Assembly (NCBI GenBank): GCA_014905825.1
Contig: JACGCN010000052.1
Coordinates: 1 to 64,000, forward strand
Direction: 5' to 3'
DNA length: 64,000 bases
DNA from: Lyophyllum atratum
Lineage: Eukaryota; Basidiomycota; Agaricomycetes; Agaricales; Lyophyllaceae
Part shown: positions 17,707 to 59,847 of the stretch, piece after piece
Layout: each line of letters opens with the position of its first letter
How positions within the stretch are numbered: position 1 is the first letter of the stretch
Program-made: the position numbers and the translations under genes
The notes under the pieces: model-generated
What the model was told of the DNA's origin: nothing
Database searches by the model: none
Seen by the model: the letters and a program-made list of their open reading frames with translations, nothing else

Positions 17707-17873
17707 TACATCTTCCGTCACTACTTGGTTCGTATCTTATGTTTTCTTGATCGATACTACTTGTTCTCAGCTACTTCATCAGCTTAGCCTTCGGACTTGC
17801 CGCCTCGTATCATGTCAGGAAGATCGACCACATTCTCTCGGATTGGACACTTCGCCCCAATTCTGCTCCCTAA
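17707..17873 (+). pseudogene. Last exon only of the membrane-anchored hypothetical gene found whole at 54888-55438
   Basis: This is the copy of the 3' end of the gene at 54888-55438. After the block edge the sequence reads LLGS, an intron (donor GTATCT, acceptor TTCTCAG), then YFISLAFGLAASYHV and on to the stop at 17871-17873. The upstream exons present in the right copy are absent because homology stops at ~17707, so this copy is 5'-truncated and presumably non-functional. Confidence 0.65.
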
Positions 17874-18184
17874 TGCTACATTCTCCGTCGCTGCCGTCAA
17901 CTTATCGTTATGCGGACTCCATGGAATGGAAGCACATGGCTGACACGTCACGGCTTATGCATGGAAGCGGGTCGACGCCAGCCTTGTGTATCCCAGTATT
18001 CACCACTTAACCTGCTTCGATGGGAGCTATCAACTCTTTGCAGCACCACATCGTGTGATATCGGTAGTTGCTGATTGCATCTATCCGTGCCTCAAGGCAT
18101 TTCGCGACTTAAGGCGACAGAGCCAGACAGTCCCGAATCACTATAGTCTAGTCTATCCTGTAACCCTGATCTACAACTCGATTC

Positions 18185-19290
18185 ATGCTTACGCCTCGGG
18201 AGCGTGGATTCCTCAACGACGTTGGACTTAGGATCCTTGATAACACAGCGTCGATTACGACTTCCACCCTACTGTACGGTACGCTGGTTCCTGTTTCGAT
18301 GTTCCTCCCCAGCGTTCACGTAACTATCCAGGGACATTTGTACTTCTTTTCTTTCTCTCTGCCTCCAAGGTCTTGTAAGTTTTAGTCAAGTATGCGGCCA
18401 GCCTTCTTCTTCTGACCCTCCTTCACAGCCGGCGACATGCCAGGTCCCCTTTCAACATGGGTGATGAAATGACTGTGACACGTACGATACCTCCGAAAGA
18501 CGCTGTGTGATAGCGTCAATGGACCGCTGGACGACACACGGCTGGATGATATTGATCAAAGCGACTTTAAGATCGACCAAATAACCGTTTGGACACGACA
18601 AGTGCTGGTGAGTCTACGCCCATTCCGACTCCTCACACGGGACACCGGAACCTTAGCTTACGTTACATTCTTAGCAAATTGTCGGAGACATGATCGTTGT
18701 TTGGAGGGCGTGGGCACTCTGTATAGATCACCGATGGGCCATCCTGTTTCCCTTCGCGTTACTCTTCGGAACTTGTGGTGAGTCTAGTTTCGCCAAATTC
18801 TCGATCCATGGGCGTCAGAGTTGACATCACCCGTAGCATCGTCGTTCGCCTTCCTGGCGCTTACGTCAACTCTCGACGGGTACAATGCGTACATTTTTGA
18901 TGGTGAAAGAGTCGCCGCTGCGTTATACAAGGCAGCGAATTCTTTATCACTTGCGACGAATGTATTTTCGACATTGTTGATTGCGTATATCTTATGGTAT
19001 GTCGCGCGATACTCTAACCATCCGTCACTGATACCCTCCTGGCCTTGGCCTTTAGGTCTCAGCACAAGCACTGGAATATAATCATGGGTGGAAGCTGGTC
19101 CCGTGCACAAACAATACTCCTCATGATTATCGAATCTGGCGCGATCTATGGCGCATGTCAGGTAAATGGAACATAGCAAGGGGTGTGAGCGTATTCTGAC
19201 AACTTTATCTGCAGTTAATGACTGTGATCGTAGTGCCGTACGTGTCAAGCGCTTTCATGTGGCATTACCTGATGTACGAAAATTCTAGGC
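18185..19290 (+). pseudogene. Basidiomycete multi-pass membrane protein, probably broken
   Basis: Exon-like pieces in order: a first exon from ATG at 18185 (ending YGTLVPVSMFLPSVHVTIQ, a membrane segment); a piece with DDIDQSDFKIDQITVWTRQVL ending at donor GTGAGT near 18607; QIVGDMIVVWRAWALC and a second membrane segment to ~18777; then SSFAFLALTSTLDGYNAYIF...ANSLSLATNVFSTLLIAYILW, SRAQTILLMIIESGAIYGACQ and LMTVIVVPYVSSAFMWHYL. The VGDMIVVWRAW and SLATNV...LLIAY patterns are typical of an uncharacterised mushroom seven-helix membrane family. I could not join the first exon to the second without stops around 18440-18510, so I treat it as a probable pseudogene, although missed introns are possible. 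The right arm retains only the part up to the fourth helix. Confidence 0.5.
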
Positions 19291-19369
19291 CATGTATCCG
19301 ACTATCGTTCTGCGTCTTATTGACGGAAACCGGTCGTTTACTAATTTGCACGGTTTCTCTACGACGGCG

Positions 19370-19765
19370 CTGGGAGGTTTAAGCCAGGAAAGTGGTTTCA
19401 AATTCTCCTTGCATGTCCCTCGCTCTGTTCACGAGGTGCAGGGGTGGATCGGGTACGAGGAAAGGGAGATGTGTTAGCTATTAGAGCGCCGTATGGATGT
19501 GAATAGTCATGTATCAATGGGAAATCGATTCCCGTGGCCGGAACAATCAATGTCTTAATGCCTCAAGTTATGCAAAGATCTCGAATCGAAAATCTGACAG
19601 TCATGGATCATAGATACTACAAGGGCTTTGATACAGCGGATCGAGGCAAACACCACGCAGGGACAGCACGATGACGCCTGTGAAAGACGATCTATTGAAC
19701 GTAAAACAATTCAGTAGGTTACCAAACAGAGTAAATGGAGCAGGGTCACTTAAGACGAACCACTA
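19370..19765. repeat. Third, partial copy of the sequence flanking the 175-aa genes
   Basis: This stretch matches 22188-22434 in direct orientation, and the opposite strand of 51250-51560: TGTCCCTCGCTCTGTT..., the ATGCAAA.ATC.CGAATCG string, ACTACAAGGGCTTTGATACAG, and ACCAAACAGAG. It is more diverged than the two arm copies and has no coding part, since it ends before the stop codon of the 175-aa gene. Confidence 0.8.
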
Positions 19766-20015
19766 ACCCTAGAGCCTGCACTGCCTCTCCTCCACGCACG
19801 GGTATGCTCTGACTGATATCGCGCCTGTCCGCCGCTCGTCAAGGATGAAGATGGTACATGCGAAATCAAAACTTCTAACGCACCGATTCTGCGGGAAGGT
19901 TGCGTTCAGTTCAGAATTTCCTGATGATATGTTGCCTTGTGCCTCAGGCCTTCTGAACTTGATCAATACATGACAATGTTACTTGTATATACCTAGGCAT
20001 CTCAATGGTAGTATA

Positions 20016-20767
20016 TCAACACCAGGCCCGCGCATGCGCTGAGAGTTTATTCCAAACTCCAGTTCCACCCACGGCGTCGAACTCCTCTACAGAAGCACGA
20101 TCTATATCGGCTCCCTTCGAATGTGACGACAGCTGTGCATGGACAGTCTGTACCCCTTGAATAAAGAGTCCAATCGGCGCTGGGCGGTCTTGACGCCGCA
20201 TATCATCATCCTTGCCGCGCTCAGCAACTCGTCCCATATAATCAAAAAGTTGATTTGCCCCCTGAAGAGACTGATTAGCTAGGCTGCCTTCTAATCTGAA
20301 TGATGGTGCTAATACCTTGGCCATATAATCTAATTCCTCCTTGACCGCCACAATCGCAATGATGATGTCCTCTTCAGGCGCTGTATCACCCTGGAAGACT
20401 TTGTAGATTATGAAATCCGGCTTCCATACGCCCTTCTCAAGACCTGCGTACCGGACGGTGAGCGTATACCATGAGAAGTACACGATCAGAACTCACCTGG
20501 ATCACTCCTTGAAGCGGCGTGACTGCCGTCCATCGCGTCATATGAACGCTCCGTTGATTCTGAGGACACACTGGCCTCGTTTCGTAAGAGACCTTGCGGC
20601 ACGATCACAAAATAATCGGAGGGGGGAAAGGCGAGTCCTAGGAAGGTGTGAACTATCTCGTGCATGTGCTCATATTCAAGCTGGCCAGAGAACGTATTGG
20701 TCCATCGAGTTTGAACCCAGCTGGGGACGGTGGTATCGTATGCGAGAGGCGGAGCAATTACTGGCAT
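20016..20767 (-). CDS. 232-aa protein of unknown function, left-arm copy
   Basis: Two exons, 20767-20497 and 20443-20016, joined across a 53-bp intron (GTGAGT...CGCAG); 699 coding nt, 232 aa. The start ATG is preceded in both arms by the same sequence. It is nearly identical to 52199-52950, differing at Thr/Ala 12 and Gln/Arg in the FIQGV(Q/R)TVHAQ segment. The N-terminal half has an aromatic-rich segment (VPSWVQTRWTNTFSGQLEYE); the C-terminal half contains KPDFIIY at residues 98-104 and IIIAIVAVKEE at 117-127, reminiscent of the PD...(D/E)xK layout of restriction-like nucleases but with Ala 123 where the acidic residue should be. The protein ends KLSAHARAWC. No signal peptide or membrane helix. 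Function unknown; the nuclease-fold idea is speculation. Confidence 0.7.
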
Positions 20768-21103
20768 GGTCTAGAAAGTACCTGTGGTTGTAATTGTCAA
20801 GAGGGATCGGCCAAGCACTGAGTGAAAAAAATCGAAGCTCGAGAAGATCACGACAGTGATCACGCGCCGCGCCCATCAGTGGCGTTATTGCTTCTACCCC
20901 GACTTATGTCCATGAAGATGCGTTGTGCGCATGCAGGTGTACTGTAAAGAAAAGGATACAAGTTCCAGAAATGCCCTTCACGGTCCACAACCGGGGACTT
21001 CGACCCAGACATCTTCCAATTATCCCTCGCCACTCTCCTCGGCCTGATATCCTCCCCCTTGTCGCTCAGAGAAACCAAACTCCCATCCAAGCCCAGCCCA
21101 TTC

Positions 21104-22187
21104 ACTCTCGGCGGCTCCTACTCCTGCCCACCTCCTCCAGGACCCCGGACTATCTTGAGGGAGGCTTGGTACCTATCCAGACGGATTTTGGACTTTTTGG
21201 CCTCGAAACCTAGGTCTGTTTCCAGACAAAACTGGGGGTAAATCCCTAAACACCTACATCACGTATCACGTAGGTGTCCAGACACAACTGGGGTGCGTAG
21301 GAGAAGTTAAATGACTGTCCAGACGAGATGGCCCCGTGGTGGAGTGGTTTGTAGTCGTGACACTGCGCGGTGCCAGTGACTACCGAGCCCTCGTTAGTTC
21401 GACTCCTGTATGCACTGACTTTTTCCTGCTCTTGTCACCATACAATGAACGTTGTACAAATTTGCTTGATTCGGAAATCCGAAAAAGGCGAGGCCGTGTT
21501 TGAGGAGCGATGAAGCTGTTCCGTAAAGAAAAGGATAAAGAAGATTTGAATATGTGTCTTCTGCTGTACATACATTCTAGGACTTCATTCAAAGCCCTTG
21601 GGGGTGCAGGGGAAGAAAAAAAGGGTTTTTACAGGCTTTCCAGACAAAATCAGGCATTTGGGAAGCTAGATCGGATTGTCCAGACATGGGCTGGAAATTT
21701 TTTCTAGGGTAGGTACAATCCAGACACAAATCGGCCAAAAGTGTCCAGACAGAAATCGCGAAATCGGAAATTTTTGGTATCTAGGCTCGAACGAGATTCG
21801 CCGGGGTCCTCCTCCTCCCTGTTACCCCTTATCTGCTGCCCGCCCCGCCCGCAACCAGCTCCGCCTTCTCCTCTTCCCGCCCAAGACTGTGACTCCTACT
21901 CCTCGCATCCCGCACATACCCCCGCCGGCTCAAGCGCGCCTTCTCCAGCCGGCTGCCACGACTTCGCGAGTTGACTAAGCGGCCTCTCCCCGCCCGCCGC
22001 CCATCCTGCATTAACCTCAAGTTAGAGGAGGCAGTACTTGAGAAATGGTACTCGCACTGACTAGAACGCTGTAGAACTTTCGAAAATGGGAACAGGATAC
22101 GTGAAGACGGGAAGGTCGTCCACCACCCCTGGAAACTGCGTCCACCACGTCTCGAAATCTTGCCTTCTCCGCTGTTCCGAGTAAACC
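21104..22187. other. Insertion specific to the left arm, with TCCAGACA repeats
   Basis: The right arm lacks this ~1.08 kb: homology breaks at CCATTCAC (21103) and resumes at CCCTCGCTCTGT (~22188). Between 21176 and 21750 the core TCCAGAC recurs about eight times (TTTCCAGACAAAA, GTGTCCAGACAC, CTGTCCAGACGAG, ATTGTCCAGACAT and others). Such a cluster resembles the subterminal repeats of a DNA transposon, and a tRNA-like sequence lies in the middle. I see no clear terminal inverted repeats and no gene. Confidence 0.6.
21330..21412 (+). ncRNA. tRNA-like sequence (possible SINE head or decayed tRNA)
   Basis: TGGTGGAGTGG at 21337-21347 fits a Pol III A box (TRGYNNARNNG), and AGTTCGACTCC at 21396-21406 fits a B box (GGTTCGANTCC) with one mismatch, at tRNA-like spacing. 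The T-arm and acceptor stem do not pair well, so this is not a confident functional tRNA. It may be the 5' head of a tRNA-derived short interspersed element, in keeping with its place in an arm-specific insertion. Confidence 0.35.
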
Positions 22188-22438
22188 ACGCGCCCTCGCT
22201 CTGTTGACGAGGTGCACGCATGAATGTGAATAACTTATGCAAAAATCCCGAATTGAACATCCGAGGGTTATGGATCATACATACTACAAGGGCTTTGATA
22301 CAGCGGTGGAGGCAAACACTACGAAGGGACAACACGATTACGCCTGCGAACGACGATCTATTGAACATAAAACAGTTCAATACGTTACCAAACAGAGCGA
22401 ATGGAGGAGGGCCACTTACGACGAGCCATGACACAGCG

Positions 22439-23031
22439 CTAATACCCACTGTAATAGCTGGGAGGGTTGACATCGACGTACCAATCCGGCTCCTGCTGTA
22501 TAATCCGCCGCAGTTTATCCATCTGCGCTTGGGTCGGCCTCCTCTCGTAGGAGCTCCTCATCGAGCTACACACGCACACGATTGGTACGCATCTGCCGGG
22601 CGAGCGTTCGAGCTCGAGCGAGGGGTCACGGGCATTGCAAATAACGCCCTCAATCGTCAGATTCCTCAACCGCGAAGACGCTCTTAGAAGTTTCATGGCG
22701 AGGTAAGTCTTGGTTCCTAAACTGACGGGGTCCAGGCCGTAGCCGTTGATGCGGTGGGCGTTCTGCTCGCAGTAGCTGACGAGCCACTCGGTGGAAACAG
22801 CAAAACCGTAGAGTATGCGGTGGTCCTTCGCGGCGGGTGTGCGGTAGGGGACTGGGAGGTGGATTTGATCTTGACTTGCCGTGTTGGTGGCTTTGGTTGG
22901 GTTGGGGGGTTGTTGTAACTGCCAGCAGTGGGATCATCATGAGCATACGTGAGAAAAAAGGCTGTAGACAGAGAGAAGCTTACACTCATAGCTTCGATAG
23001 ATTGCGTAAGAGACGGGATTTGAGATGACAT
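22439..23031 (-). CDS. 175-aa protein of unknown function, left-arm copy
   Basis: Two exons: 23031-22984 (48 nt, MSSQIPSLTQSIEAMS) and 22918-22439, with a 65-bp intron (donor GTAAGC, acceptor GGCAG); 528 coding nt, 175 aa. The second-exon frame was chosen because it keeps a conserved-looking body: HRILYGFAVSTEWLVSYCEQ, then TYLAMKLLRASSRLRNLTIE, then the C-terminal DWYVDVNPPSYYSGY. The right-arm copy (50647-51239) has the same exon lengths and stop, with about ten substitutions concentrated just after the intron. Preservation of frame and splice sites in both copies argues that it is a real gene. No known domain, signal peptide or membrane helix is visible. Confidence 0.7.
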
Positions 23032-23310
23032 GGGACGTGCAGTGGGATGGTGATGTGTATAAAGTGTCGATGGTGGGTGGAGATTGAACTTGTTTATTGA
23101 CACAGCCACGCGTTTTGAAGTTCCGATAATTATGCCGATGGGTTCAGAGTTCAGTGTCGACAGTGAATTCCGAGTCGGATCCGGGCGACCTTCGCCTCGT
23201 GATATACGAGAAGAGGGGTAATCTGCATATTGTCAACACGAGGGGAACGAGCGGTCTTCTCTGCGGCATCGAGGCTTTTATTGCTCGAAAACGTGTTCAT
23301 AGAAAGCCGT

Positions 23311-23313: not shown

Positions 23314-23530
23314 CACTATGGAGGCCGGCAAGGTTGCCGGTCAACCTACCACAGGTCGAATGTTGCCATTCGACCTGGTACTGGTTGATCTTTAGGTTGA
23401 TGGAATCAACCCGTCGAATAGGATGTCAATTGACCTAACAAATTGACCTCACCATGGTTGTTTATTGACCAGTAGAATTGACCTATACCATAGAGTAGTT
23501 ATCGACCATGTAAATCAACCCCAGCAAGGG
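23314..23530. repeat. Left terminal and subterminal repeats of the CACTA element
   Basis: The region starts with the CACTA terminus and contains many copies of the 7-mer TCAACCT / AGGTTGA and the related AATTGACCT in both orientations (for example GGTCAACCTA, TTTAGGTTGATGG, CAATTGACCT, ATAGAATTGACC, AAATCAACCCC). Clusters of short subterminal repeats are transposase-binding sites in CACTA elements. Confidence 0.85.
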
Positions 23531-23621
23531 CTTTCTTCACCCGGCAAGCATGGAGGGTAAGCCGTGATGAACGGGACTGTCTACTGCGTGCTATGTCGTG
23601 CTACGTCGTGCTACATTGTGT

Positions 23622-26600
23622 CTAGTCATCTTCCTCGCCTACTGCTCGAGCCAGATTACCACTTCTATCAATAATCCCCCATGTGTGGGGTTCCTTATCC
23701 TTCACCCGCCCTACCAAACATTGTACCGAGGTGACATCGACAATGTCCAGCTGGCCCATCCGGGAATAGAAATGGATGTCGAGATCTTTGAGCTGTGTGT
23801 CGTTGTCAAGCACACAAGAGCGGATTACGGCAAAGATTACCGTGTCTTGCCCCTCAGGAAGTCGGAGAGTTTGGCGAGCTTCGGGGGCGTGAAAATGAAC
23901 GACGAAGAGTTGTTGGAGTTGGCCATAAAAGGTTTGTAACTCAAACTTCATTGCTCTTGTCCGATGCGCTGCGTTTTGGTCGACATACATCTCGTACTGG
24001 GGGAGACAATGTCAGTTAATTTGCCAAGACAATCAAGGGCTCGAGCACTCACGCGGACGAATGTCGCATCGCGAGAATCTTCAGAAGTGGTCCCTAGTAA
24101 CGCCGCACGCATAGTGTCTCCCGCATCTGAGTCGACACGCCGTACCTTCCCCCATTCATGAATTTCGGCTGCTCTCAGACACTCGGTGACACGAGCCATT
24201 GACGGTATCGCTGGCTTTGATCCCCTCCGAGCACCAGGCCGAGTTTGAGGGTCGGGAGGTTCCTGAGAAAGTTGGACCTCAATACGAGTGCGGAAGGCTG
24301 CACAGATCTGCTTTATGATGTTGTTTGGAGGACGCTCATGCCTCGATGGAGGTAGCAGGACACATGTGGGATCTGATTTCAAGGTAAGCATTGGACATGG
24401 CTGGAACAAAGGGAAAGACTTACAGGAGGGGTCACGGAAGCCAAGAGCAGCACGAGGTAGGCGGAAAGAAAGTTCCTCGGTGAGATTATAGATGACCTTG
24501 ATTTGCGTGAGCTGGGCTTCTTCTAGGACGTAACGATCGATGGCGGCAAAGGGGAAACGCCGACTCCGGATGGCAGGCTGTAGCTTGCCACAGTAGCGTT
24601 CCATCGGAAATGCCCAATAGCACCATACGGGTCCCGCAGCTTTGATGCTATCAGCGACGTGCAGTAGCGCATGAATCGTGACAGGGCATGCTGATATGCG
24701 CATCGGGTTGTTTTGGTAATAGATCCTGTGTAATTGCGTCAGAAATGATGGATGACGCCAACGATAGACTCACTCTTCGTACTCGGTCACCCACTGGATA
24801 AACCCTTGGCGAACATCATCAATCTCGTCGTCGGAAATCTCGAACCCGAGGCAGAGATGCAAGAGTCTGACCAGCCGCACAAAATGTTTGAAATACTTCG
24901 GCCGCTCAAAGCGGCGACGAAGCAAAATAGGACCTATATAAAGTGCCCAGAAAGACCACATTTCCGCGGACATGATCGCTCGATCAGTGGCGATGTTCGG
25001 GACCCGATTCCCATATGCTGAGGGGATGGTGGATCCTGACTGGGCTGTGGCCTCACCGATAGCATCCCACACCGACTTCGGGAGCTCGTAGTTTTCGTGG
25101 CCGTCGTCGAGATCCTTGAATGTTCCGGTCCAGTGGAGAATGAGATTTTTGAGGTTGTTCTCATCGAAGAGATGCATGCAATCATGAGGGAAGGAGGCGG
25201 GGAATCGAAGTGAGGTAATATGAGAGAGAACGGGAATAGCCTTGATCCCGTATGACTTGGCGAGCCTCTCTGCTTCGGCATTGGTGGTTGCTGACTGTAC
25301 TTCACGAGCTTGTTCCAACAAGCGTGTATGGGTGCGAAGAGGAAGGTTGGCAGCGTCATAGCGCTTGGTGAGCTGTGCGTTGGCAAGAACTGCAGGATGG
25401 GTGGAGCGGTTAAGTGGGACGTAATTGGTAGTCGCGCGAGAGTTTGGAACACGAAGGCCTTTAATCTCGCACATACGGCATGGTGAGATGCCGTTGTGCC
25501 CTTTCATGTGCATGATCATTGCGATTGCCGGCATATCCCCAAATACTAGAATGAGATAGGCATGGAGGTCGAACATCTCAGAGCCAAGGATATCAAATGC
25601 TCGGACACCCTTCATGAGCTTGAGGAGCTCGACCACAAGGGGCCACAGGAAGGAATCGGGATCTGCAGGCTTCTTCGGTCCTGGGATGACGCCGACTGCA
25701 AGAATATGTTCGAGATGGAAGCGGATTTCGGGGGGGAGATTGTAATTAAAGATAATTAGCGGCCACGCAGTGCTCTTTCGCTTCTTCCATGGACAGAACC
25801 CGTCAGTTGAGAGCCCGAGTGCGACATCACGAGGGTCAGAGAAGTAGTGATGGTCCAGCTTCTTCCCATCGATCTCGACCAGGAGTGACCGAAGAAGCCG
25901 GTAAAGATCCCCATCAAATACATCCGTCGTAACACCTGGTGTGGATTTATGTTCTCCACGGTACCCCATTGTTCGGGCCATCTTGCAATTGCTGGCGTAT
26001 GCAATGAGTCGAGGAATGAGAGGGATGTAGACAAATCTCTTGCGAGCTCTGCCGCTAGACTGGTAACGAGGCTCCTCGCAATGGGGGCACTGCACAAGTG
26101 CTTCATTTGGCCCGACAAAGCAACAACAGGAGTTGATGCAACAATCATAGATCTCAGGTTTGAAACCACTGAGAAACGCGACGCGGGAACGGATGCCGTC
26201 AAGTTTGGGAAGGGGCGGGTGAGAGGGAAATGCAAATGGAAGCTTCGCGAAATCGGCGTCGGTTGTGTGCGTTTGGACCTTGTATGAAAACGCCCGACAG
26301 ATGGCGCGATCATAGGAACTGAGCTTCTCCACTAAAAGTTGGTTAGTTTTGTGTCGATAAGATGGAACCACTTTAACACACCAATTTCAGCTGCGTACCG
26401 CTCATACTCTTCTCCGTACGCCTCAGATGCTGCTGAGAGCAGTTTTTCGAAGGCATCCCAGTCAGGGAGGTCCTCGTCATCATCCTCCATATCCTCATCA
26501 CACTCTTCGAGTCCCGGAAGCTCCTCGCCCCCTAGATATCGATAATCGACCTCAACTTCGTCATCCTCTTCATCCTCAACCCATGCCTGGCGTCGGCGAG

Positions 26601-26907
26601 TAGACCACTCGTTTAGATCCGGCTCCGGCTCGTTTTCGCTCAGCTCCATGCCATGATCTCGCTCTGCAAAAGCTGGTGGTGACATTGGTTCTGGCGGAAA
26701 TGGAAGGCGGGGTGGTTCAGGTGTAGTGTCGTCAGACTCATCAGTCGAAATGTTGTCGAATTTGCGGAGTCCACTGGTATGGGAAGGTGCAGTGGCACGA
26801 GAATATGGGTGTATAGAAAGGTCACGGTGGGCACGCTCGCGAGACCGCGTCAAGTACTTGTTGCAGCATAAACACAGTATGAGAGTATTTCGAGCTCGGG
26901 ACGCCAT
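23622..26907 (-). CDS. CACTA transposase, Tnp2 family, 1026 aa
   Basis: Five exons: 26907-26382, 26331-24774, 24725-24424, 24372-24053 and 23996-23622. They sum to 3081 nt and keep frame at every junction. The N-terminus has CLCCNKYLTRSRERAHRDL (residues 12-30), a CxxC...H zinc-binding-like start, followed by an acidic linker. A Cys-rich segment (YDCCINSCCCF...CPHC) lies near 238-260. The core contains STDGFCPWKK (Asp ~352) followed by STAWPLIIFNYNLPPEIR and VIPGPKKPADPDSFLWPLVVELLK, the hallmark block of Tnp2 transposases (Transposase_21, PF02992). The C-terminal part (IHALLHVADSIKAAGPVWCYWAFPMERYCG) is also typical of basidiomycete members. It should bind the element ends and catalyse cut-and-paste transposition in the nucleus. 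No stop or frameshift seen. Confidence 0.93.
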
Positions 26908-27057
26908 TCAGCGTAGCGTGAGGATACCGAGTGGGACTTAAGAGAGATATGACACTAATATCGGAACCCGGAACCACCTTGAAATTTTCTCAATCTTAAT
27001 TCCCCCGCCCATCATCGCCCTAAAGACGGTCGGACTCAACTCATCGTTGGTGGAGAG

Positions 27058-28313: not shown

Positions 28314-28579
28314 GACAACGAGGTGTGTCCGTTTTTTCATGGCTTCGAATGGCAGATCAACTGATGTGTCACAGTATCAACAACAGTCCACAGCGCTTAA
28401 CAGGCGGTTTCCGACGTCGACAGCTTTACATACGAGTTTGAAGTCGTTTACCTTCTCCAGTCTCTTCTTACTCATTCAATAAACATTATTCCATGCTATC
28501 TGTATACTGGCGCGCAGCAGGAAATCGAGAACCGCATGACCGAAACATCCTGAGCAAGGGACGATGATCAACCCTTGAT

Positions 28580-28852
28580 CTGATGACATGACCTCAAGGA
28601 TAGGTTGAATTGTTCACCTGGTACTGGTCCAATTCCGACCCGTTCTCGAGTGATAATCAACCTGTGCTCTCGTTCTCGAAACAGGTTGAAATTTCTAAAA
28701 TTAGGTCAGTCATTGACCTATCCGGACAACCTATCAACCTTATCAAAAATCAACCTTGCATTGACACTTATCAACCTGGAGCTGTGTAGTGTTCAACCTA
28801 TGTAGGGGTTGGAAATATAGGTTGACGGTCAACCCGGGCAACCGTCACAGTG
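28580..28852. repeat. Right terminal and subterminal repeats of the CACTA element
   Basis: Repeated TCAACCT / AGGTTGA motifs (ATAGGTTGAATTG, AATCAACCTG, ACAGGTTGAAATT, CTATCAACCTTATC, GTTCAACCTATG, ATATAGGTTGACGG) lead to the terminus CACAGTG at 28846-28852, followed by the target duplication ACG (28853-28855). Confidence 0.85.
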
Positions 28853-29123: not shown

Positions 29124-29617
29124 TAAGATTAGATTAGATTGCGCCTCATGTTCCAGTGAACCTCATGCGTTTTGCAATACTTCCACATTCCTTTGCATGT
29201 AGATTTTAGTGGGTCTTTACATCTTTCATCTGGATGTGCCTAGGGCACGTAATGGTTCATGGACTCGAATACATAGTGGGAGGCGCTTGCAAGCGGTGCC
29301 AGGAATGGCGCTCAGCACACAGCCACTGATTTCGATCGATCAGCTGTGCCACGTTTTTTTTTCTTCTCACCAGGCCATCGTTCGTGGGTCCCAGCTCAAG
29401 GTCGCTGCGCCTCGCATAACGCCCCCGCTCTCGGCAGTCGGGACCGACAAGCGTTTACCGACAACCTCGACAGGGGCTGAGGAAAGTTCCAGGAGGAAAG
29501 TGGTCGAGGGTGGGAAGATCAAAAGGAAGATGTTGATTCGAGTGTGTGGCGCGGGTGAGTGATCAGGTGGCTGCGTGGCACACCCTTGACCCAACACAAC
29601 CACCATAGGGACCATCC
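29124..29617. other. Upstream region of the zinc-finger gene
   Basis: Between the broken small gene and the zinc-finger CDS. Open frames present on both strands show no recognisable product. I see no defined promoter element; a T-rich patch lies near 29352-29362. Confidence 0.4.
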
Positions 29618-45919: not shown

Positions 45920-46034
45920 GGAGGGGTGGTATGGACGCTTTTTGCGATGTTATGGTGTCGAGTTATATGCTATATCCGGAGTTTCCGCTATCGTCATATG
46001 GAGTCTTTTACTGATTCGTGGTTAACGTATTTTT

Positions 46035-46650
46035 AGTAGGTAACTTATTTGTATGGTATATGATATACCGATCAATCGTAGTCTCATGCCTAGTCGCGGT
46101 CAGATCTTGATGCAACTCTCACCACGTCGACGAACCGTTTAGACGGGTACTAAGGGCGCCGCGCTTAGTAGACGTCTTGATGAACTTTCAGACACCTTCG
46201 CTCGACGCAAATCGACTGTTTTCCAAGCCAACAGAGATCCGGTCATCGCCTTTTCAAGACTGCATTCCCCTGCTAAGATGTACACAAGACCCATGGACGC
46301 ATACATGTCCAGTATCTAGCTTTCACGGGGCTTGGACCCCCCACCTGCGATATACATATCGTCCATTCCCGGCGACGAGAATCATCCTAACGGGAAGTTC
46401 CAAATTCAGGTATAGATGAAGACGAGGCTTCGCGGAGCTAGGCTGTTACAGTACCTCCACTTGGGGGGTGGTGAACTCAGTCACCGTCATTCCGAACGAA
46501 GGAAAACGGGGTCGATGTTGGGTAGGTGTGAGAGAAATTCAAGCTGGTTTGAGCTCGGGGCTGGTGAACGCAGTCACTGGCATTCCGAACGAAGGAAAAC
46601 GGGGTCGATGTTGGTTAGGTGCAAGAGAGATCAAGCTGGTTCGGGACGAT
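46035..46650. repeat. Dispersed repeat shared with 53340-53940
   Basis: Direct-orientation similarity to 53340-53940: TTATTTGTATGGTATATG, TAATGCCTAG-type strings, AACCGTTTAGACG followed by GTA.T.AGGGC.CC, CCGCTCGA.ACG, and near the end GGTGAACTC.GTCAC with ATTCCGAACG. Within it 46466-46650 is a ~90-bp tandem duplication (GGTGAAC.CAGTCACYGKCATTCCGAACGAAGG...GGGTCGATGTTGG, starts near 46466 and 46556). Nature unknown; it may be an old transposon remnant. Confidence 0.7.
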
Positions 46651-47789
46651 GACTGGACGTGGGGTGGAGAGGATATGTGGTTTTGGGGGGTGCTTGGAAG
46701 CTGGTGGTGTTGATGCTTCTGCCGCTAGCGTTCGTACTTATCCAGCGGCTATAACTTGGAAAGGTACGGGAACACATCGGGATGCAACGATGCCAATCCA
46801 CTGAACGATGGACCCGGGCGTATGAACGGAGGCACGAGACGCAAAACGCAGAAAAAGGGTCCTTTCATGATGATACAGGTGCACAGCCAAAAACGCATGA
46901 AACCGAGAAGCATGGCTGAGCGAATGCACAACGTACGTGATAAAACAAACGTTGGCAGAAGATGGGCTATGCGCTTCGGCTGTATATACGAACATGTATA
47001 CGAGGACTGCAAGAGATGTCGAGAAGAAAGGACGAGGATACGGGGCGGGGGTAAGTGTGTGGTTGAGCTGGAACCCAGGGAGCTGAGGTGGGAGACGCAC
47101 AAGTGAAAAGACGAGGGGGCGTGGACCAAACGAGAAACTGAACGCAAATTGAAATTGAAACCGGAATCGGAACGGAGGGAGCGCAAGAGAAGGGGCACGT
47201 CGAAAGGAACGAAGGAGAAAAGCTGGAGAGGAAATCCTTGGAAGGAAACGGTTTAACAAGCGCAGGGGTCCGTCCTTCGATTTGATCGCTCGCAGCCGTC
47301 ACACCGAGATTGCTGCGCTGCTATCTCGCTGCGTGGGAGTCTAGATCGGCGAGGGATAGTATCCCTCGTCGCGTCAAGTGGGGTGGGAGGGTGTCCAAGA
47401 AAGTTTCATGCGGGAATGGAACTATCTGCGAGATTCTGAAGCTTCGTCTGGCCGTGGCTGGTGTCCGTTGGTGGAGCCGGTATAATCATCATCGCCGATC
47501 GGGTCTGATGTTAGCGCGAGAAACCTCTGAGCTCAGAAACATCAATAGAGCGTTAAGAGTATTCGGAAGGCGCTGTGGATGAACGAGATGAAGTAAACTT
47601 ATGACGTGGAAATGTAGCGGTACGTACTACAATGCTGAGAGAGGGCCTGGCTGAATCCTGATAAACCAGACGCTGCAAGCGAAATTTTCTACAGTCTGAA
47701 TGCGAACGGGAAACCACAGTAAGTCAGAGCGGTGATAATGGCTAGCATAATGGAATGTATGAGCGATTGCGCGACATAGGGCTCCGCAC

Positions 47790-47940
47790 CGCGCCGTATG
47801 TCGACGGCAATACGGTGCCGTGATACGGCCACCGTCACCGTACCGTTGGCATGTGGGCAGGTTCATTCACGGTACGGGAGGCGGTACAGAAGTGCTGATC
47901 TACGGCCGTACACGGCCGTAAGTATACGGCTCGTCGATCG
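47790..47940. repeat. TACGGC-rich palindromic cluster
   Basis: Dense short inverted repeats built on TACGG/CCGTA: CAATACGGTGCCGTGATACGG, CACCGTACCGTTGG, and CTACGGCCGTACACGGCCGTA with GTATACGG next to it. This resembles the subterminal repeats of a DNA transposon. It directly precedes a long hairpin. Confidence 0.55.
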
Positions 47941-47965
47941 CGTGAATCCAAGTGAATCCTGCCCA

Positions 47966-48031
47966 TTTCTGGTTGGTAAGGATTCTGGAGGGCACCACCT
48001 GCGCCCTCCAGAATCCTTACCAACCCAGAAA
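47966..48031. repeat. Long near-perfect hairpin
   Basis: Left arm TTTCT plus GGTTGGTAAGGATTCTGGAG plus GGC; right arm GCCCTCCAGAATCCTTACCA plus ACC, then C and AGAAA. The 23-bp central stem is perfect, the loop is 9 nt (48994-equivalent offset: 47994-48002), and five more pairs follow a one-base bulge. It could fold as an RNA or DNA hairpin, or be a foldback insertion. Confidence 0.9.
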
Positions 48032-48373
48032 CGCAAGTCTGAAGGTCGCGTGACTATGCCATGCGTCAGATCACAATTTAGAGTTTATGTGGGAATTTGT
48101 ACAGCCGCTTGTTGCTAGCGACGACCACCACCACAATTTCTGCCTACATAATCTACGCGAGCGCCTCCTCCTTATCCTCTGTACAACGAGCAGTGTTTCA
48201 ATATATCAAGGTTTTAGGTCCATGTGAGTGAGTGAGGAGCTTTGAAACTTTGGGGCACGTATCCTCGAGAGAGCTGAACCCCAAAATGTTGTACTATAAA
48301 AAATGCACGGTAAGTCTCAAATCTTCGACGCCATTCACTGCTCCGCTAATCTACTTCCAGAATATCCACTACG

Positions 48374-48685
48374 ATGTCCGATCAGTGTGCTCTCAACGAG
48401 GATGGAACATTGAAGGATGCAAGGGAGATTCGCTGGTCCTTCGATGTGGACAGTGACACTCCGACGTCCGTGGCCCGAAAAGCCAACCACCGCCGTTGAA
48501 TGTATGTCCAGTTATTTTTTATTGCGTTTCTTGTTATTGATGACTATATCAAAGCCCAACCAGCTGGGCGTGGCCGCCGCCTCAAAAAAACCTCTAAGCT
48601 TGATGCTGGATTGGCGGCCGAGCTTGACGACGAATTTGGGAACCCTATCCCGATCAAACCACGCCGCTCGCGACACTGACAGCCT
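48374..48685 (+). pseudogene. Fragment of a recurrent basidiomycete hypothetical gene
   Basis: From ATG 48374 the sequence reads CALNEDGTLKDAREIRW and then SDTPTSVARKANHRR to a stop at 48497-48499. A second piece downstream (RGRRLKKTSKLDAGLAAELD, to ~48680) lies in a different frame, separated by a GTATGT...AAAG interval that could be an intron. The ALNEDGTLKDA start is a pattern I recall from small repeated genes in mushroom genomes. The frame cannot be joined cleanly, so I call it a relic. Confidence 0.35.
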
Positions 48686-48997
48686 GACGCGTCGTATGTA
48701 CAACCACTGCACCACTTGAAGAGTTCAACTTGATCGTACTATCTGCTTTCACGCAAAGGTGTTGCCAAACACTGGCGATCAATTCGGGTTTCCTCTACCA
48801 ATGCCATTTCCTGAACATTGCCCATGATGACTCCTGATACGATTCTCCGGGAACTCCTCGATGAAACTATGAGCCAGCTGTCCGATGATACACTATGTTT
48901 CTTTGTCCAACAACCATCCTAAGTCATATTTATTCTATCCAACTCGCCAAACGTCGACGTCCAGAATTCAGATAGGGGCCCTCAAAAAAACACGAAG

Positions 48998-50128
48998 CTA
49001 ATATATCTGGGCCAACGCCTGGATCCGCTCCCTCACAGCGTACAAAGCCACATTCGATTCATCAGTCTTCAGGCTGCAGCAGGCGAGAACTCTGTCGTAA
49101 TACATCGCGACTGCGTTAGGATCCCGATATGAGCGGTCGACGTCAGATTGGTCTTCCTCCGAGTCAGTTTCAGGCTCCTCGTCTGAGTCGTCGACGTCAG
49201 ATTGCTCTTCCTCAGTGTAAGGTCCATCGGACCAAAATCTGCCCGCTGGCCCACGATTGTTCCTGAGGACGACGTCACGATGGTACTCGACATACCTCCA
49301 GTGCGGGCCGAGAGCAACGATGACGCCGATGATGTCAACGTCATCGTGATCGTGACACCGGAACGCATGCCACACCTGGTCCTCAGTCTGTTCGAGGACC
49401 TCGTTGAACCTAAAGGGTTCCGCAACTTCTGACTCTATAGGCTTGGCCTTGTTCTCAACCAGCAAGAGTATATGTTTCTGCAGATTGCCGCTCTTGTATT
49501 CATGAAGAAGCTCTGTGAAATCGGGAATTCGCGTCGAGCGTTTGGTTTTGAATCTACGAGGCGGGCTCGATGCAATGGATGATTGAGCCTGAGGACTAAT
49601 CTGCTCTGGTTGCGCGTTACGATGGGTAGGGGGAGGGGAAGGGGTGACCAGCATTGTTGGGCTGTAACCCACAAGGGAGTGCTGATTTGTGCGATTTGCC
49701 CGGTCTTCTGGGCTCGGTGCACTCCTGCTGCGTGAGTAAGGTGTTGGCGTGGATGGGGCTAGATCCTGGTTCGTCGCACCGGAGGACTGGTCATTGACGC
49801 TGACCTCATAGGAATCCTCGTCCTCGTTAACGTCGATGTCACGCGTAAGAGGAAATTGGGGATAGACGCGAGTTGTTCTGGTTCGTCCGCCTGTCAATTC
49901 GCGGCAGAAGTCTCTGTCGAAAATGACGTTCTCTAGGACCCAACACCATACACCATACCAAGGGGCCTCTCTGTGGTCATCGTCGGCAGTATCATATGCG
50001 ACACGGAAGTCGAAATCTCGTTGCATTTCTTGAATGTGGGTGCGATGGTCGCGTACGAAGATCAGGAGGAGTGCGGAAGTCGTGCTGTTGTTGCTGCGGT
50101 TTTTTGCTAAGACGCAGAGCTCCGGCAT
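48998..50128 (-). CDS. 376-aa protein with PD...ExK-like motif, function unknown
   Basis: A single open exon from 50128 to 48998. The N-terminal part (residues 36-80) has aromatic clusters (EAPWYGVWCWVLENVIFDRD). The middle (100-195) is disordered, Ser/Thr/Pro-rich. Then RIPDFTELLHE (Pro 202, Asp 203) is followed by HILLLVENKAK (Glu 225, Asn 226, Lys 227). A PD followed ~20 residues later by E-x-K after a hydrophobic strand is the layout of the PD-(D/E)XK nuclease superfamily, and a downstream helix-strand pattern (VWHAFRCHD...DIIGVIVALGPHWRYVEY) is compatible. The C-terminus is acidic with two similar SDVDDSDEEP / SDVDRS stretches. I cannot name the family; nuclease activity is only a hypothesis. 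Confidence 0.65.
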   Translation of the reverse strand: MPELCVLAKNRSNNSTTSALLLIFVRDHRTHIQEMQRDFDFRVAYDTADDDHREAPWYGVWCWVLENVIFDRDFCRELTGGRTRTTRVYPQFPLTRDIDVNEDEDSYEVSVNDQSSGATNQDLAPSTPTPYSRSRSAPSPEDRANRTNQHSLVGYSPTMLVTPSPPPTHRNAQPEQISPQAQSSIASSPPRRFKTKRSTRIPDFTELLHEYKSGNLQKHILLLVENKAKPIESEVAEPFRFNEVLEQTEDQVWHAFRCHDHDDVDIIGVIVALGPHWRYVEYHRDVVLRNNRGPAGRFWSDGPYTEEEQSDVDDSDEEPETDSEEDQSDVDRSYRDPNAVAMYYDRVLACCSLKTDESNVALYAVRERIQALAQIY

Positions 50129-50532
50129 TGCAAAAACATCATATATATACTTATTTCAAGGTGGGAGTTCGAAACAAACTGCGAAGCTGATCTGCCAGAA
50201 CTACGTCCATGAGGGACGTTACGCGTAAGAGACATGCGAACAAAAAGATCTAGATAAGGCACATCATACGTGCCAAGGAAGCAAGGAGGAGGAAATCAAG
50301 AGGAAATGGTAGCACAAGGTCCACCCGTCTTCGACCCGTCTGCATTGTCTACGAGAACAAGAACTGACCAGGTGACAACAATTGCATTCTGTGAGTAGGC
50401 AAGGCTGTGTTTGATGAACGGGCGACTCCACCGTTCCGACTCCTTGACAAAAACTGCCCACCATTGTCTACGAGAACAATGATGGAGCCACCGTGGTACT
50501 ACCAGAACAAGAGAACAATGCGTTCGAACTCT
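50129..50532. other. Junction zone before the right inverted-repeat arm
   Basis: No gene. Repeated TCTACGAGAACAA strings occur (50347, 50466), with AACAAGAGAACAA near 50505, immediately outside the arm's inner edge. Confidence 0.5.
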
Positions 50533-50646
50533 GACTCATCGGGATTATTATCGGAACCTCAAAACACGTGGCTGTGTTGATAAACAAGTTCAATCTCCAC
50601 CCACCCATCGACACTTTATACACATCACCATCCCACTGCACCTCCC

Positions 50647-51239
50647 ATGTCATCTCAAATGCCGTCTCTTACGCAATCTATCGAAGCTATGAGTGTAAGC
50701 TTCTCTCTGTCTACAGCCTTTTTTTTCACGTATGCTCATGATGATCCCACTGCTGGCAGTTACAACAACCCCCCAACCCCACCAAAGCCACCAACACGGC
50801 TAGGTCAGAGCAAATCAACCTCACGATCCCCTACCGCACACCCGCCGCGAAGGACCACCGCATACTCTACGGTTTTCCTGTTTCCACCGAGTGGCTCGTC
50901 AGCTACTGCGAGCAGAACGCCCACCGCGTCAACGGCTACGACCTGGACCCCGTCACTTTAGGAACCAAGACTTACCTCGCCATGAAACTTCTAAGAGCCT
51001 CTTCGCGATTGAGGAATCTGACGATTGAGGGCGTCATTTGCAATGCCCGTGACCCCTCGCTCGAGCTCGAACGTGCACCCGGCAGATGCGTACCAATCGT
51101 GTGCGTGTGTAGCTCGATGAGGAGCTCCTACGAGAGGAGGCCGACCCAAGCGCAGATGGATAAACTGCGGCGGATTATACAGCAGGAGCCGGATTGGTAC
51201 GTCGATGTCAACCCTCCCAGCTATTACAGTGGGTATTAG
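50647..51239 (+). CDS. 175-aa protein of unknown function, right-arm copy
   Basis: Exons 50647-50694 and 50760-51239 with a 65-bp intron, exactly the exon lengths of the left copy (22439-23031). 175 aa: MSSQMPSLTQSIEAMS, then LQQPPNPTKATNTARSEQIN, HRILYGFPVSTEWLVSYCEQ, and the same C-terminus PDWYVDVNPPSYYSGY. Most differences from the left copy are in the segment after the intron (RSEQINLTIPY against SQDQIHLPVPY). Upstream of the ATG a TATA-like TTTATACAC lies at ~50617, about 30 bp before the start, in both copies. Function unknown. Confidence 0.7.
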
Positions 51240-52198
51240 CGCTGTGTCATGGCTCGTCGTAAGTGGCCCTCCTCCATTCACTCTGTTTGGTAACGTATTG
51301 AACTGTTTTATGTTCGATAGATTGTCTTTCGCATGCGTAATTGTGCTGTCCCTCCGTAATGTTTGCCTCATTCACTGTATCAAAGCCCTTGTAGTATGTA
51401 TGATCTATAACCCTCAGATGTTCGATTCGGGATTTTTGCATAAGTTATTCACATTCATGCGGCGCTCTACTAGCCAACATACCATCTCCCTCCTCGTACT
51501 CGATCCACCCCTGCACCTCGTCGACAGAGCGAGGGACATGCAAGGAGCCTGATGAGAGGAGGGTGGAATACCATGAAAGAGCCCAAACAACCGTAATGGA
51601 GCCATGACGATGATCCAGAGACTCAGAGGCATAAAGGGAGTTTTACACGCTGCAAATACTGCATGACGACTATGATTAGATCCACAATCTGCCCTCTCCC
51701 CTGCGTAAATGATGTCTCTCTTCAAGAACAAGGCTCTCTCGTTGGCGGCACCGTCTCGATCATCCTGGTTATTTTTGCACCTTTTTCGGTCTTCTGGGGT
51801 GCTCTTTGGAAGACACCTGTAACCAATTTCAATGTGCGGTTATCGTACATCTTTGTTTCTCGTGAATGGGCTGGGCATGGATGGGAGTTTGGTTTCTCTG
51901 AGCGACAAGGGGGATGATATCAGGCCGAGGAGAGTGGCGAGGGATAAGTGGAAGATGTCTGGGTCGAAGTCCCCGGTTGTGGACCGTGAAGGCATTTCTG
52001 GAACTTGTATCCTTTTCTTTACAGTACACCCGCATGCGCACAACGCATCTTCATGGACATAAGTCGGGGTAGAAGCAATAACGCCGCTGACGGGCGCGGC
52101 GCGTGATCAGTGTCGTGATCTTCTCGAGCTTCGATTTCTTTCACTCAGTGCCCGGCCGATCCCTCTTGACAATTACAACCACAGGTACTTTCTAGACC

Positions 52199-52950
52199 AT
52201 GCCAGTAATTGCTCCGCCTCTCGCATACGATACCGCCGTCCCCAGCTGGGTTCAAACTCGATGGACCAATACGTTCTCTGGCCAGCTTGAATATGAGCAC
52301 ATGCACGAGATAGTTCACACCTTCCTAGGACTCGCCTTTCCCCCCTCCGATTATTTTGTGATCGTGCCGCAAGGTCTCTTACGAAACGAGGCCAGTGTGT
52401 CCTCAGAATCAACGGAGCGTTCATATGACGCGATGGACGGCAGTCACGCCGCTTCAAGGAGTGATCCAGGTGAGTTCTGATCGTGTACTTCTCATGGTAT
52501 ACGCTCACCGTCCGGTACGCAGGTCTTGAGAAGGGCGTATGGAAGCCGGATTTCATAATCTACAAAGTCTTCCAGGGTGATACAGCGCCTGAAGAGGACA
52601 TCATCATTGCGATTGTGGCGGTCAAGGAGGAATTAGATTATATGGCCAAGGTATTAGCACCATCATTCAGATTAGAAGGCAGCCTAGCTAATCAGTCTCT
52701 TCAGGGGGCAAATCAACTTTTTGATTATATGGGACGAGTTGCTGAGCGCGGCAAGGATGATGATATGCGGCGTCAAGACCGCCCAGCGCCGATTGGACTC
52801 TTTATTCAAGGGGTACGGACTGTCCATGCACAGCTGTCGTCACATTCGAAGGGAGCCGATATAGATCGTGCTTCTGTAGAGGAGTTCGACGCCGTGGGTG
52901 GAACTGGAGTTTGGAATAAACTCTCCGCGCATGCGCGGGCCTGGTGTTGA
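52199..52950 (+). CDS. 232-aa protein of unknown function, right-arm copy
   Basis: Exons 52199-52469 and 52523-52950 (271 + 428 nt), with an intron GTGAGT...CGCAG of 53 bp. Same architecture as 20016-20767: N-terminal Trp-rich part, KPDFIIY at 98-104, AVKEE at 123-127, LFDYMGRVAERGKDDDMRRQ and a C-terminus ending HARAWC. Only two amino-acid differences from the left copy were noted, fewer than in the 175-aa gene pair, which hints at recent gene conversion or constraint. Same direction as the 175-aa gene upstream, ~960 bp away. Confidence 0.7.
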
Positions 52951-53339
52951 TATACTACCATTGAGATGCCTAGATATATACAAGTAACATCGTCATGTAT
53001 TGATCAAGTTCAGAAGGCCTGAGGCGCAAGGCAACATATCATCAGGAAATTCTGAACTGAACGCAACCTTCCCGCAGAATCGGTGCGTTAGAAGTTTTGA
53101 TTTCGCATGTACCATCTTCATCCTTGACGAGCGGCGGACAGGCGCGATATCAGTCAGAGCATACCCGTGCGTGGAGAGAGGCAGTGCAGGCTCTGCCCTT
53201 TCTCGCCAGTTGACGGCCTTCCCAAAATAGCTCACGTTGGAATATATTGCTGTAGTTCTATATCAGTAGTTACGAGTAACCTCTGCACGCCACCCCGGTG
53301 TATCGCCCTCGGAAACCCAACTCAGCAAGGCTACGTGGA

Positions 53340-53940
53340 CCGCCTCCCTGCTGTACTCGCAGGTGATTTATTTGTATGGTATATGCCATACGAATGAATG
53401 GCAGTCTAATGCCTAGTGAGGGTCTTCAGTAATTCTGGTCCACGTCAACTCTTCAAACGCCGGAACCTCACTCACCACAAACCGTTTAGACGAGTAATGA
53501 GGGCACCTCACTTGGTAGCGCCGACGAGAACGTGATAATGGACTTCCATACGTTCCGCTCGATACGAATTCGGTGTCTTGCAGGTCAACACGACTCGCAA
53601 CATGGCATTCTGGACTCGCCCACATTCTCCTACCAAAAATTTTCCAAAGGCCCGCGAATTGTCGGAGGATAGAGTATCTGGTTTGAACGGAGATGGAATT
53701 CCCGAACCAGCGTATGGTCAATGGTCTTGTTATCCGCCATTCGACGACTGGTACGATCTTGGTGCGAGGCGCGCTTACTACCGCTGGTCCAGCATGAATG
53801 GTATACATCAAGATCCCGCTTCACGGAGCTGGACTCGTACCCTGACTTGGGGGCTGGTGAACTCGGTCACGCTAATTCCGAACGGTTTCGGCGTTCTCAG
53901 GTAGGCTAGTGAACTTGATCACCCTGATTCGAAAATGCTA
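53340..53940. repeat. Dispersed repeat shared with 46035-46650
   Basis: Same orientation as the copy between the BTB gene and the hairpin. Here it replaces the 3' half of the membrane-protein gene that the left arm still has, so it marks a replacement or insertion in the right arm. Only one GGTGAACTCGGTCACGCTAATTCCGAACGG unit and a decayed second unit (GTGAACTTGATCACCCTGATTCG) are present. Confidence 0.65.
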
Positions 53941-53942
53941 GG

Positions 53943-54591
53943 GTGATGTCAACTCTGAAGCCAATGAATCGAGAATCTGGCGAAACTAAATTCACCACAA
54001 GTTCCGAAGAGTAACGCGAAGGGAAACAGGATGGCCCATCGGTGATCTATACAGAGTGCCCACGCCCTCCAAACAACGATCATGTCTCCGACGATTTGCT
54101 AAGAATGTAACGTAAGCTAAGGTTCCGGTGTTCCGTGTGAGGAGTCGGAATGGGCGTAGACTCACCAGCACTTGTCGTGTCCAAACGGTTATTTGGTCGA
54201 TCTTAAAGTCGCTTTGATCAATATCATCCAGCCGTGTGTCGTCCAGCGGCCCATTGACGCTATCAATCAGCGTCTTTCGGAGGTATCGTACGCGTCACAG
54301 TCATTTCGAACATCACCCATGTTGAAGGGGACCTGGCATGTCGCCGGCTGTGAAGGAGGGTCAGAAGAAGAAGGCTGGCCGCATACTTGACTAAAACTTA
54401 CAAGACCTTGGAGGCAGAGAGAAAGAAAAGAAGTACAAATGTCCCTGGATAGTTACGTGAACGCTGGGGAGGAACATCGAAACAGGAATCAGCGTACCGT
54501 ACAGTAGGGTGGAAGTCGTAATCGACGCTGTGTTATCAAGGATCCTAAGTCCAACGTCGTTGAGGAATCCACGCTCCCGAGGCGTAAGCAT
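53943..54591 (-). pseudogene. Truncated right-arm copy of the multi-pass membrane gene
   Basis: Reverse-complement counterpart of 18185-18842. It has the first exon (LTPRERGFLNDVGLRILDNT...YGTLIPVSMFLPS, start at 54591), the WTRQVL exon, and QIVGDMIVVWRAWALC up to the fourth membrane segment, where homology ends at 53943. Later exons (SLATNV...LLIAY and SRAQTILLMII) are absent, so it cannot make the full protein. Confidence 0.6.
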
Positions 54592-54887
54592 GAATCGAGT
54601 TGTAATAGACTAGACTATAGTGATTCGGGACTGTCTAGCTCTGTCGCCTTAAGTCGCGAACTGCCTTGAGGCACGGATAGATGCAATCAGCAACTACCGA
54701 TATCACACGATGTGGTGCTGCAAAGAGTTGATAGCTCCCATCGAAGCAGGTTAAGTGGTGAATACTGGGATACACAAGGCTGGCGTCGACCCGCTTCCAC
54801 GCATAAGCCGTGACGTGTCAGCCATGTGCTTCCATTCCATGGAGTCCGCATAACGATAAGTTGACGGCAGCGACGGAGAATGTAGCA

Positions 54888-55438
54888 TTAGGGAGCAGAA
54901 TTGGGGCGAAGTGTCCAATCCGAGAGAATGTGGTCGATCTTCCTGACATGATACGAGGCGGCAAGTCCGAAGGCTAAGCTGATGAAGTAGCTGAGAACAA
55001 GTAGTATCAATCAAGAAAACATAAGATACGAACCAAGTAGTGACGGAAGATATATCATGGGAATGTCGGGCTGTGTAGGGTAGCGGTCAGCGTCGAAGTA
55101 CCAAAGATGATCAAGGATGCCTGACGCACGGAATGGGTTGATCTTGGATCCCGCTATCTCGAATTCGAGGCCTTCCTTGTCTGAGCCTGATCTCATCCAT
55201 ATCCTTATATTCTGAGGTCCTATGTCCATGTTCCGTGATGGTGCTTGATCTTCTCCATCACACGGCGATAGAGGGCGTCTCGGTCCTGGAAGCAAATAAG
55301 CAAATGCGTCGAGCAACGATGACGAGAAGCACTAACGGAAGGGTAGTGAGAAGATAGGAACATCGAGTCAAGAAAATGCCTGAAGTTCTCGCCAGCCACA
55401 AGAATACGTGTACGGACGGAATTGGAAGAGTCTACCAT
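54888..55438 (-). CDS. Hypothetical protein with C-terminal membrane segment, model uncertain
   Basis: Minus strand. The first exon reads SVRTRILVAGENFRHFLDSM to HYPS, then a 51-bp intron (GTTAGT...CTTCCAG) leads to DRDALYRRVMEKIKHHHG. The following conserved-looking stretch, DKEGLEFEIAGSKINPFRAS...ILDHLWYFDADRYP...IYLPSLLGS, lies in another frame, so there is either a further 44-bp intron (GTGTGA...ACATAG) or a frameshift. The last intron (GTATCT...TTCTCAG) joins LLGS to YFISLAFGLAASYHVRKIDH and a stop at 54888. The hydrophobic YFISLAFGLAASY may be a membrane anchor. The right edge of the inverted repeat lies within this gene at ~55054; the left arm has only its end. Confidence 0.45.

Positions 55439-57811: not shown

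Positions 57812-59847
<2,036 letters not shown>

Follow-up and report, generated by a model that had tools for sequence, protein, structure and literature searches.

In Drosophila subobscura, according to the passages of PMC5080602 on the ends of inversions O4 and O8, inverted duplications are confined to the inverted arrangement, where they stand at both ends; the other arrangement has a single copy. Passages of another study (PMC7584159) treat the same-chromatid and sister-chromatid variants of staggered breakage as not distinguishable by pattern. In the Atlantic herring, three of four inversions are flanked by inverted duplications of 8–60 kb, and in the relevant part of PMC11499932 the authors infer recombination between them. 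Inversions between the two haplotypes of basidiomycetes appear in passages on Phlebopus portentosus (PMC12411881) and Puccinia striiformis (PMC12129025). Here we describe a 64,000-nucleotide stretch (the window) of Lyophyllum atratum (Agaricales, Lyophyllaceae), positions 1–64,000 of contig JACGCN010000052.1 (C100), in which two inverted arms frame a 27.4 kb interior. A homologous contig of the same assembly, C75, carries this interior in the opposite orientation. The window haplotype and C75 differ by a heterozygous inversion of ~33 kb, and the arms are probably (at about 0.7, from comparison of the two contigs) the scar left by repair of staggered breaks.

The locus is a fungal instance of a known inversion footprint. 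The first-pass annotation of the window knew of no description of such an arrangement, but the footprint is familiar from the Drosophila passages (PMC5080602, PMC7584159). The likeness is to O4 and O8, with a gene duplicated in the process, and for O8 PMC5080602 relates, in part, that the duplication corresponds to one breakpoint. Set against the Drosophila cases as those same passages present them, the L. atratum case is fungal, its 33 kb is not of cytological size, its polarity is assigned by parsimony, both arrangements are present as two contigs of one assembly, and each arm has a private replacement. The herring inversions, as far as the relevant part of PMC11499932 goes, likewise have inverted duplications next to the breakpoints and of similar identity (85–99% in herring), but the other L. 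atratum haplotype has no pair to recombine. An inversion between haplotypes is shared with Phlebopus and Puccinia, from which, on the passages of PMC12411881 and PMC12129025, the breakpoint duplication sets it apart. A literature search returned no fungal precedent in respect of inversion breakpoints, inverted repeats or staggered breaks, the matches looking unrelated by title and abstract start and the absence applying to that search; it also returned no paper on the L. atratum genome or assembly, as judged by title.

Inverted arms and the opposite arrangement on C75

The assembly comprises 64,759,978 bases in 151 contigs, and the window sequence contains zero N. Several searches gave matches paired on two contigs (C68/C130, C62/C35), and the HD genes on C1 and C133 differ in open-frame length, which together suggests that the assembly includes the two haplotypes of a dikaryon. 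The left flank is called L, the interior X, the right flank R and the arms A and B; in three-way counts, C stands for C75. The parts of the locus are as follows.

11172–17705 (+): L, in the same orientation as C75:45181–51750
17706–17713: L–A join, where L-type and arm-type sequence have ATCT in common
17706–23152 (−): arm A, in which the breakpoint segment is copied in inverted orientation; colinear with C75:76260–71393 except for a private segment, and running on colinearly into the interior
21106–22216: private segment of arm A (1.1 kb), in place of ~400 bp found in arm B and C75
28853–46131: interior X, inverted relative to C75:71233–53128
46131–47397: far interior end, a weak colinear match to C75:53128–51046 that includes a relative of the left-flank CT-rich repeat
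47398–50526: haplotype-specific stretch of 3.1 kb at the interior–B join, containing an open reading frame (ORF) at 48998–50155 (−)
50527–55055 (+): arm B, a second copy of this segment, oriented as on C75 and colinear with C75:71393–76260 except for a private segment, and running on into R
53195–53934: private segment of arm B (0.74 kb), where arm A has ~930 bp of non-homologous sequence
55056–64000 (+): R, in the same orientation as C75:76261–85124

The arms are real in the assembly. Self-BLAST of the window, a self-comparison for which the first-pass annotation had called, confirmed them as three inverted block pairs nested in order: block 1 at 17706–18839/55055–53935 (1138 columns, 96.6% identity), block 2 at 19771–21105/53194–51862 (1335 columns, 98.7%) and block 3 at 22217–23152/51461–50526 (937 columns, 94.9%), with bit scores of 1467–2320 that exclude chance. 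The near-identity described for them holds inside the blocks only, and private, non-homologous sequence lies between. A repeat search recovered the same arms as six ungapped pairs (95–100%), and exact runs common to A and B reach 581 bp. The interior between the arms spans 23153–50526, and the inverted segment including arm A spans 17706–50526 (32.8 kb). Pairing of the arms into a hairpin or cruciform across the intervening 27 kb is considered implausible. The arms were also considered as two copies of a mobile element, a reading rejected on finding that block 1 matches only A, B and C75 (3 matches), and that the relatives of blocks 2 and 3 outside the arms and their C75 counterpart reach at most 84% (the match counts for these two blocks being lower bounds).

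On C75 the order is L (45181–51750, same strand), interior (~53.1–71.2 kb, opposite strand), arm (71393–76260) and R (from 76261, same strand). The breakpoint segment of ~4.9 kb occurs once there and twice, in opposite orientations, in the window; the window has the interior reversed and, between it and L, a further arm. Comparison of interior orientation between haplotypes had been proposed beforehand as a check on the arms, and it was borne out: they mark an inversion difference in which the interior is reversed on C75 and the flanks are not. Among the self-matches of 100 bp or more within C75:43000–86000, 16 in all, none is inverted, and the arm is single in that region. Leaving its private segment aside, arm A follows C75 downwards from 76260 to 71228 and then, past a transposon insertion, runs into the interior. 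Beyond itself, each arm copy follows the C75 arrangement on one side only, A into the interior and B into R. As each copy keeps one native neighbour, the new joins are those between L and A (17706–17713) and between the interior and B (near 50526).

Whole-assembly searches with L (11000–17705), part of the interior (29609–33000) and R (55056–60000) each gave one long match, which was C75, and C100 and C75 are on that account not taken to be unrelated paralogous duplications. The match of L to C75 declines from 91.6% (45181–48807) to 82.7% (49023–50869) and 74.2% (50906–51364). Minor matches of L lie on C10 (868 bp, 99%), C46 (606 bp, 87%), and C130 and C85 (~550 bp each, 68–73%). On the right side, colinearity with C75 continues until a repeat-rich stretch is reached, and past the window C100:64001–66671 (2671 bp) matches C75:85125–87798 at 98%.

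Probable staggered breaks and the history of the arms

The single arm of C75 and the one-sided colinearity of the window arms make it more likely that the arms are a product of the flip than its cause. The ancestor would have been C75-like, with the order L, interior, arm, R. One break would have fallen within or next to two tandem CT-rich repeats, in apparently intergenic sequence at ~51.36–51.75 kb of C75, and at the other end two strands or sister chromatids would have been cut ~4.87 kb apart (C75 positions 71,393 and 76,260). Reverse rejoining with fill-in or exchange would leave the staggered segment at both ends in opposite orientations, as the two arms. At some time, each arm would have acquired its private replacement and a CACTA transposon would have inserted beside arm A, and gene conversion probably homogenised the arm copies unevenly. 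The features of staggered breakage that were found are an inverted duplication at both ends of one arrangement, a single copy with the interior reversed in the other, and colinearity on one side of each copy.

A three-way alignment of the arms with C75 bears on the order of these events. Over the outer 1.2 kb, 91 sites group A with B, 8 group A with C75 and 9 group B with C75, which places the duplication on the window lineage, after its split from C75. At each private segment C75 resembles the other arm, and both private segments are therefore later changes. The segment of arm A has 13 short partial relatives (70–88%) on several contigs. Relatives of the arm B segment were found in the genome search only at the far interior end, that is, beside the other breakpoint; it is 66–67% identical to C75:52433–53211 and 75–82% identical to short window matches at 46.04–46.5 kb, and may represent an anciently related gene or a remnant of repair.

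Agreement between the arms changes inwards, the AB:AC:BC counts being 23:6:8 in columns 2400–3600 and 26:16:17 from column 4800 on. The two inner blocks also differ, with 18/1335 A–B differences in block 2 and 48/937 in block 3 (Fisher p 1.8e-7, on counts back-calculated from the self-BLAST identities with gap columns included). The simplest reading of this uneven similarity is gene conversion, either between the arms or with the other haplotype.

At the left breakpoint side, C75 has two tandem CT-rich repeats (51058–51414 and 51416–51793, 68% alike). Their relatives in the window lie apart, at the end of L (17184–17707) and, reversed, at the far interior end (47397–46877), whereas on C75 they are adjacent. 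The interior end aligned to C75:50906–52000 with a score of 84 (shuffle mean 24.6, z 23.6), to C75:51416–52430 with a score of 48 (z 9.5) and to L of the window with a score of 73 (mean 23.9, z 17.5), and two control pairings gave z 0.7 and 0.5 (100 shuffles in each case). Since the best match of the interior end is to the first C75 repeat, no claim is made as to which repeat went where. No counterpart of the adjoining 3.1 kb (47398–50526) was seen on C75, where it scored 29 (mean of 50 shuffles, 25.9), and the rest of the genome gave no match of high identity.

Mean identity to C75 comes to 90.1% for the 13 windows of L and 91.1% for the 33 of the interior, and in R it is 93.6% at 55.1–59.6 kb (9 windows) and 96.7% at 60.1–63.6 kb (7 windows). 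These are 500-bp windows with gap columns left out, and the interior mean omits two windows at 46.0–47.0 kb (62–63%), the CACTA element and short segment-end remainders. Of seven control locus pairs, three look allelic, at 98.1% and 96.2% (>3 kb) and 99.6% (1.8 kb); the remaining four are variously partial, repetitive, confined to one contig or non-allelic. For one strain and few controls, the lower identity around the inversion fits reduced recombination, but L is no less diverged than the interior, and late inversion of a haplotype already old and diverged would give an equal pattern.

Several observations weigh against an origin by staggered breaks as set out here. The polarity rests on parsimony with no outgroup, an overhang of 4.9 kb is long for nicks in the same chromatid, and the joins of C75, like those of the window, rest on the assembly without reads. 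The counts of AB against AC+BC (91:17 outer, 23:14 middle, 26:33 inner) are heterogeneous (chi-square 29.5, p 3.9e-7, the bins between these being dominated by private segments and excluded), and a single duplication with no later exchange would not give such unevenness. The left flank is as diverged from C75 as the interior is. The arms, at ~1–5% apart, look younger than the interior haplotypes at ~9%, which points to a later inversion or to conversion between the arms. The interior end is closer to the first C75 repeat than to the second, blurring the exact left cut, and the 3.1 kb stretch at the interior–B join is not accounted for by staggered breaks.

Competing explanations

The best-surviving alternative, although we consider it improbable, is that the segment was first duplicated in inverted orientation at the opposite end of the interior and that non-allelic homologous recombination between the copies then flipped the interior, C75 having never had, or having lost, the second arm. 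Exact runs of up to 581 bp are enough to recombine, the uneven similarity of A and B suggests exchange, and the herring inversions are read in this way by their authors in the part of PMC11499932 that concerns them. Against it stands the single arm of C75, a contig whose self-matches of 100 bp or more in 43000–86000 include none that is inverted. Given that single arm, recombination needs two events exactly at the interior ends rather than one. The repeat pair that inversion by inverted-repeat recombination calls for in both arrangements was likewise not found in C75:43000–86000. The suggestion in the first-pass annotation that the arms could flip the interior is not supported for them as pre-existing machinery, because with one arm C75 has no inverted pair to recombine.

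Recombination at the present day is a separate matter. The exact run of 581 bp means that the arms could recombine now, and later flips through them are possible. A stronger form, in which the arms act as a recombination pair that exchanges sequence, the DUF6534-bearing interior flips repeatedly, and a diverged gene block is kept in alternative orientations by the two nuclei of a dikaryon or by different strains, is speculative and would be a long shot; the contrast in A–B synonymous divergence (dS) between two arm genes, 0.006 for gene 2 and 0.069 for gene 3, is cited for the exchange of sequence.

Replicative repair by template switching includes microhomology-mediated break-induced replication (MMBIR) and fork stalling and template switching (FoSTeS). 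A process of this kind might have made the inversion and the inverted duplication together, with no staggered cuts, and we rate it as less probable still than prior duplication followed by recombination. The four bases ATCT common to both sides of the L–A join would suit it, as would the arm B segment whose only relatives found are at the other breakpoint and the unexplained 3.1 kb at the interior–B join; passages of PMC7584159 allow that repair alone could explain the duplications of O7. Nothing in the present evidence separates it from staggered breaks, and the arm B segment is only 66–67% like its C75 relative and 75–82% like the short window stretches. As the interior end itself is only 62–68% alike between haplotypes, the age of that segment cannot be told.

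An assembly artefact, in which the second arm would stem from a misjoin or fold-back on C100, is unlikely and the least credible of these accounts: C100 is short (300,738 bp), begins in a tandem array, is repeat-rich at 66.7–74 kb and was seen without reads, but the arms differ by ~1–5% within blocks and have large private segments, the CACTA element stands beside arm A alone and C75 shows a clean empty site for it, and the C100 left flank is only 74–92% identical to that of C75 and is for that reason not a stray piece of it.

Genes, transposon and surrounding repeats

The remaining features lie in arm A and beside it.

17706–18839: block 1 of arm A (1134 bp), resembling exons of a membrane protein; the C75 ORFs have no Pfam match
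20019–20767 (−): gene 2, arm A copy, two exons, like FPV67DRAFT_951132, a hypothetical protein of Lyophyllum atratum
22442–23031 (−): gene 3, arm A copy, two exons, MSSQ...YYSGY
23314–28852 (−): CACTA (tnp2) DNA transposon, which starts CACTATGG and ends CACAGTG, with an ACG target duplication

Predicted genes 2 and 3 lie ~2 kb apart. In arm A, arm B and C75 alike, the two exon stretches of each gene are open and the stop codon keeps its position. With the block 2 ORF as query, a protein search gave one match, FPV67DRAFT_951132, whose sequence is the arm A variant of gene 2. For gene 2, dS is 0.058 between A and C and 0.064 between B and C, beside the low A–B value; for gene 3 the corresponding values are 0.088 and 0.078. 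The 385-residue ORF in the 3.1 kb stretch has 9 relatives besides itself, among them hypothetical proteins of Crassisporium and Lyophyllum and others from Piloderma and unnamed sources. Pfam searches gave no family for two arm ORFs, this 385-residue ORF, six C75 ORFs and three further proteins. The same stretch holds a ~66-bp palindrome (47966–48031, 87%); its relatives at other places in the genome match it on both strands, and it looks like a short inverted-repeat element.

CACTA (CMC) transposons have CACTA termini, a 3-bp target duplication and a tnp2 transposase, and all three occur at 23314–28852, within the interior as first annotated. The element, of ~5.5 kb, stands next to arm A and is absent from C75, where an empty site has one ACG; it is a separate insertion on the window haplotype. 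Its ORFs match tnp2 (PF02992, E 1.6e-24), and a DUF4218 match falls below its cut-off. As a cause of the inversion the element is rejected, having its own target duplication and an empty site on C75 and being present at one end only. A DUF6534-like peptide motif occurs at 38744 and 40911 in the interior and at 60299 outside it, and DUF6534 was confirmed by Pfam in the one motif-bearing interior ORF tested (38462–38911).

The left end of C100 (window 1–10850) is a tandem array of approximately seven 1328-bp units, 99.6% identical between register-shifted copies and holding internal 111-nt subrepeats. Contig C10 starts with 868 bp that are 99% identical (reverse strand) to C100:11000–11868, and the two contigs may meet in this array. 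Beyond the window, C100:64001–74000 is repeat-rich, and a piece of >5 kb (4612–9995 of that stretch), 98% identical to three places on other contigs, presumably consists of transposons. STE3 gave 41 matches, all on C61, C96, C24, C74 and C108 and none on C75 or C100, and HD gave 6 Homeobox_KN matches, on C86, C83, C1 and C133 and again none on C75 or C100. The locus is accordingly not taken for a mating-type region, linkage past the contig ends being outside the scope of these searches.

The origin of inversions in fungi is hard to see with one assembled haplotype, and here a single assembly resolves both arrangements to the base. The arms suggest at which end the cut was staggered, and two genes were duplicated as a by-product. 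The locus offers a case, testable by polymerase chain reaction (PCR), for asking whether mushrooms carry inversions that stop blocks of genes from recombining.

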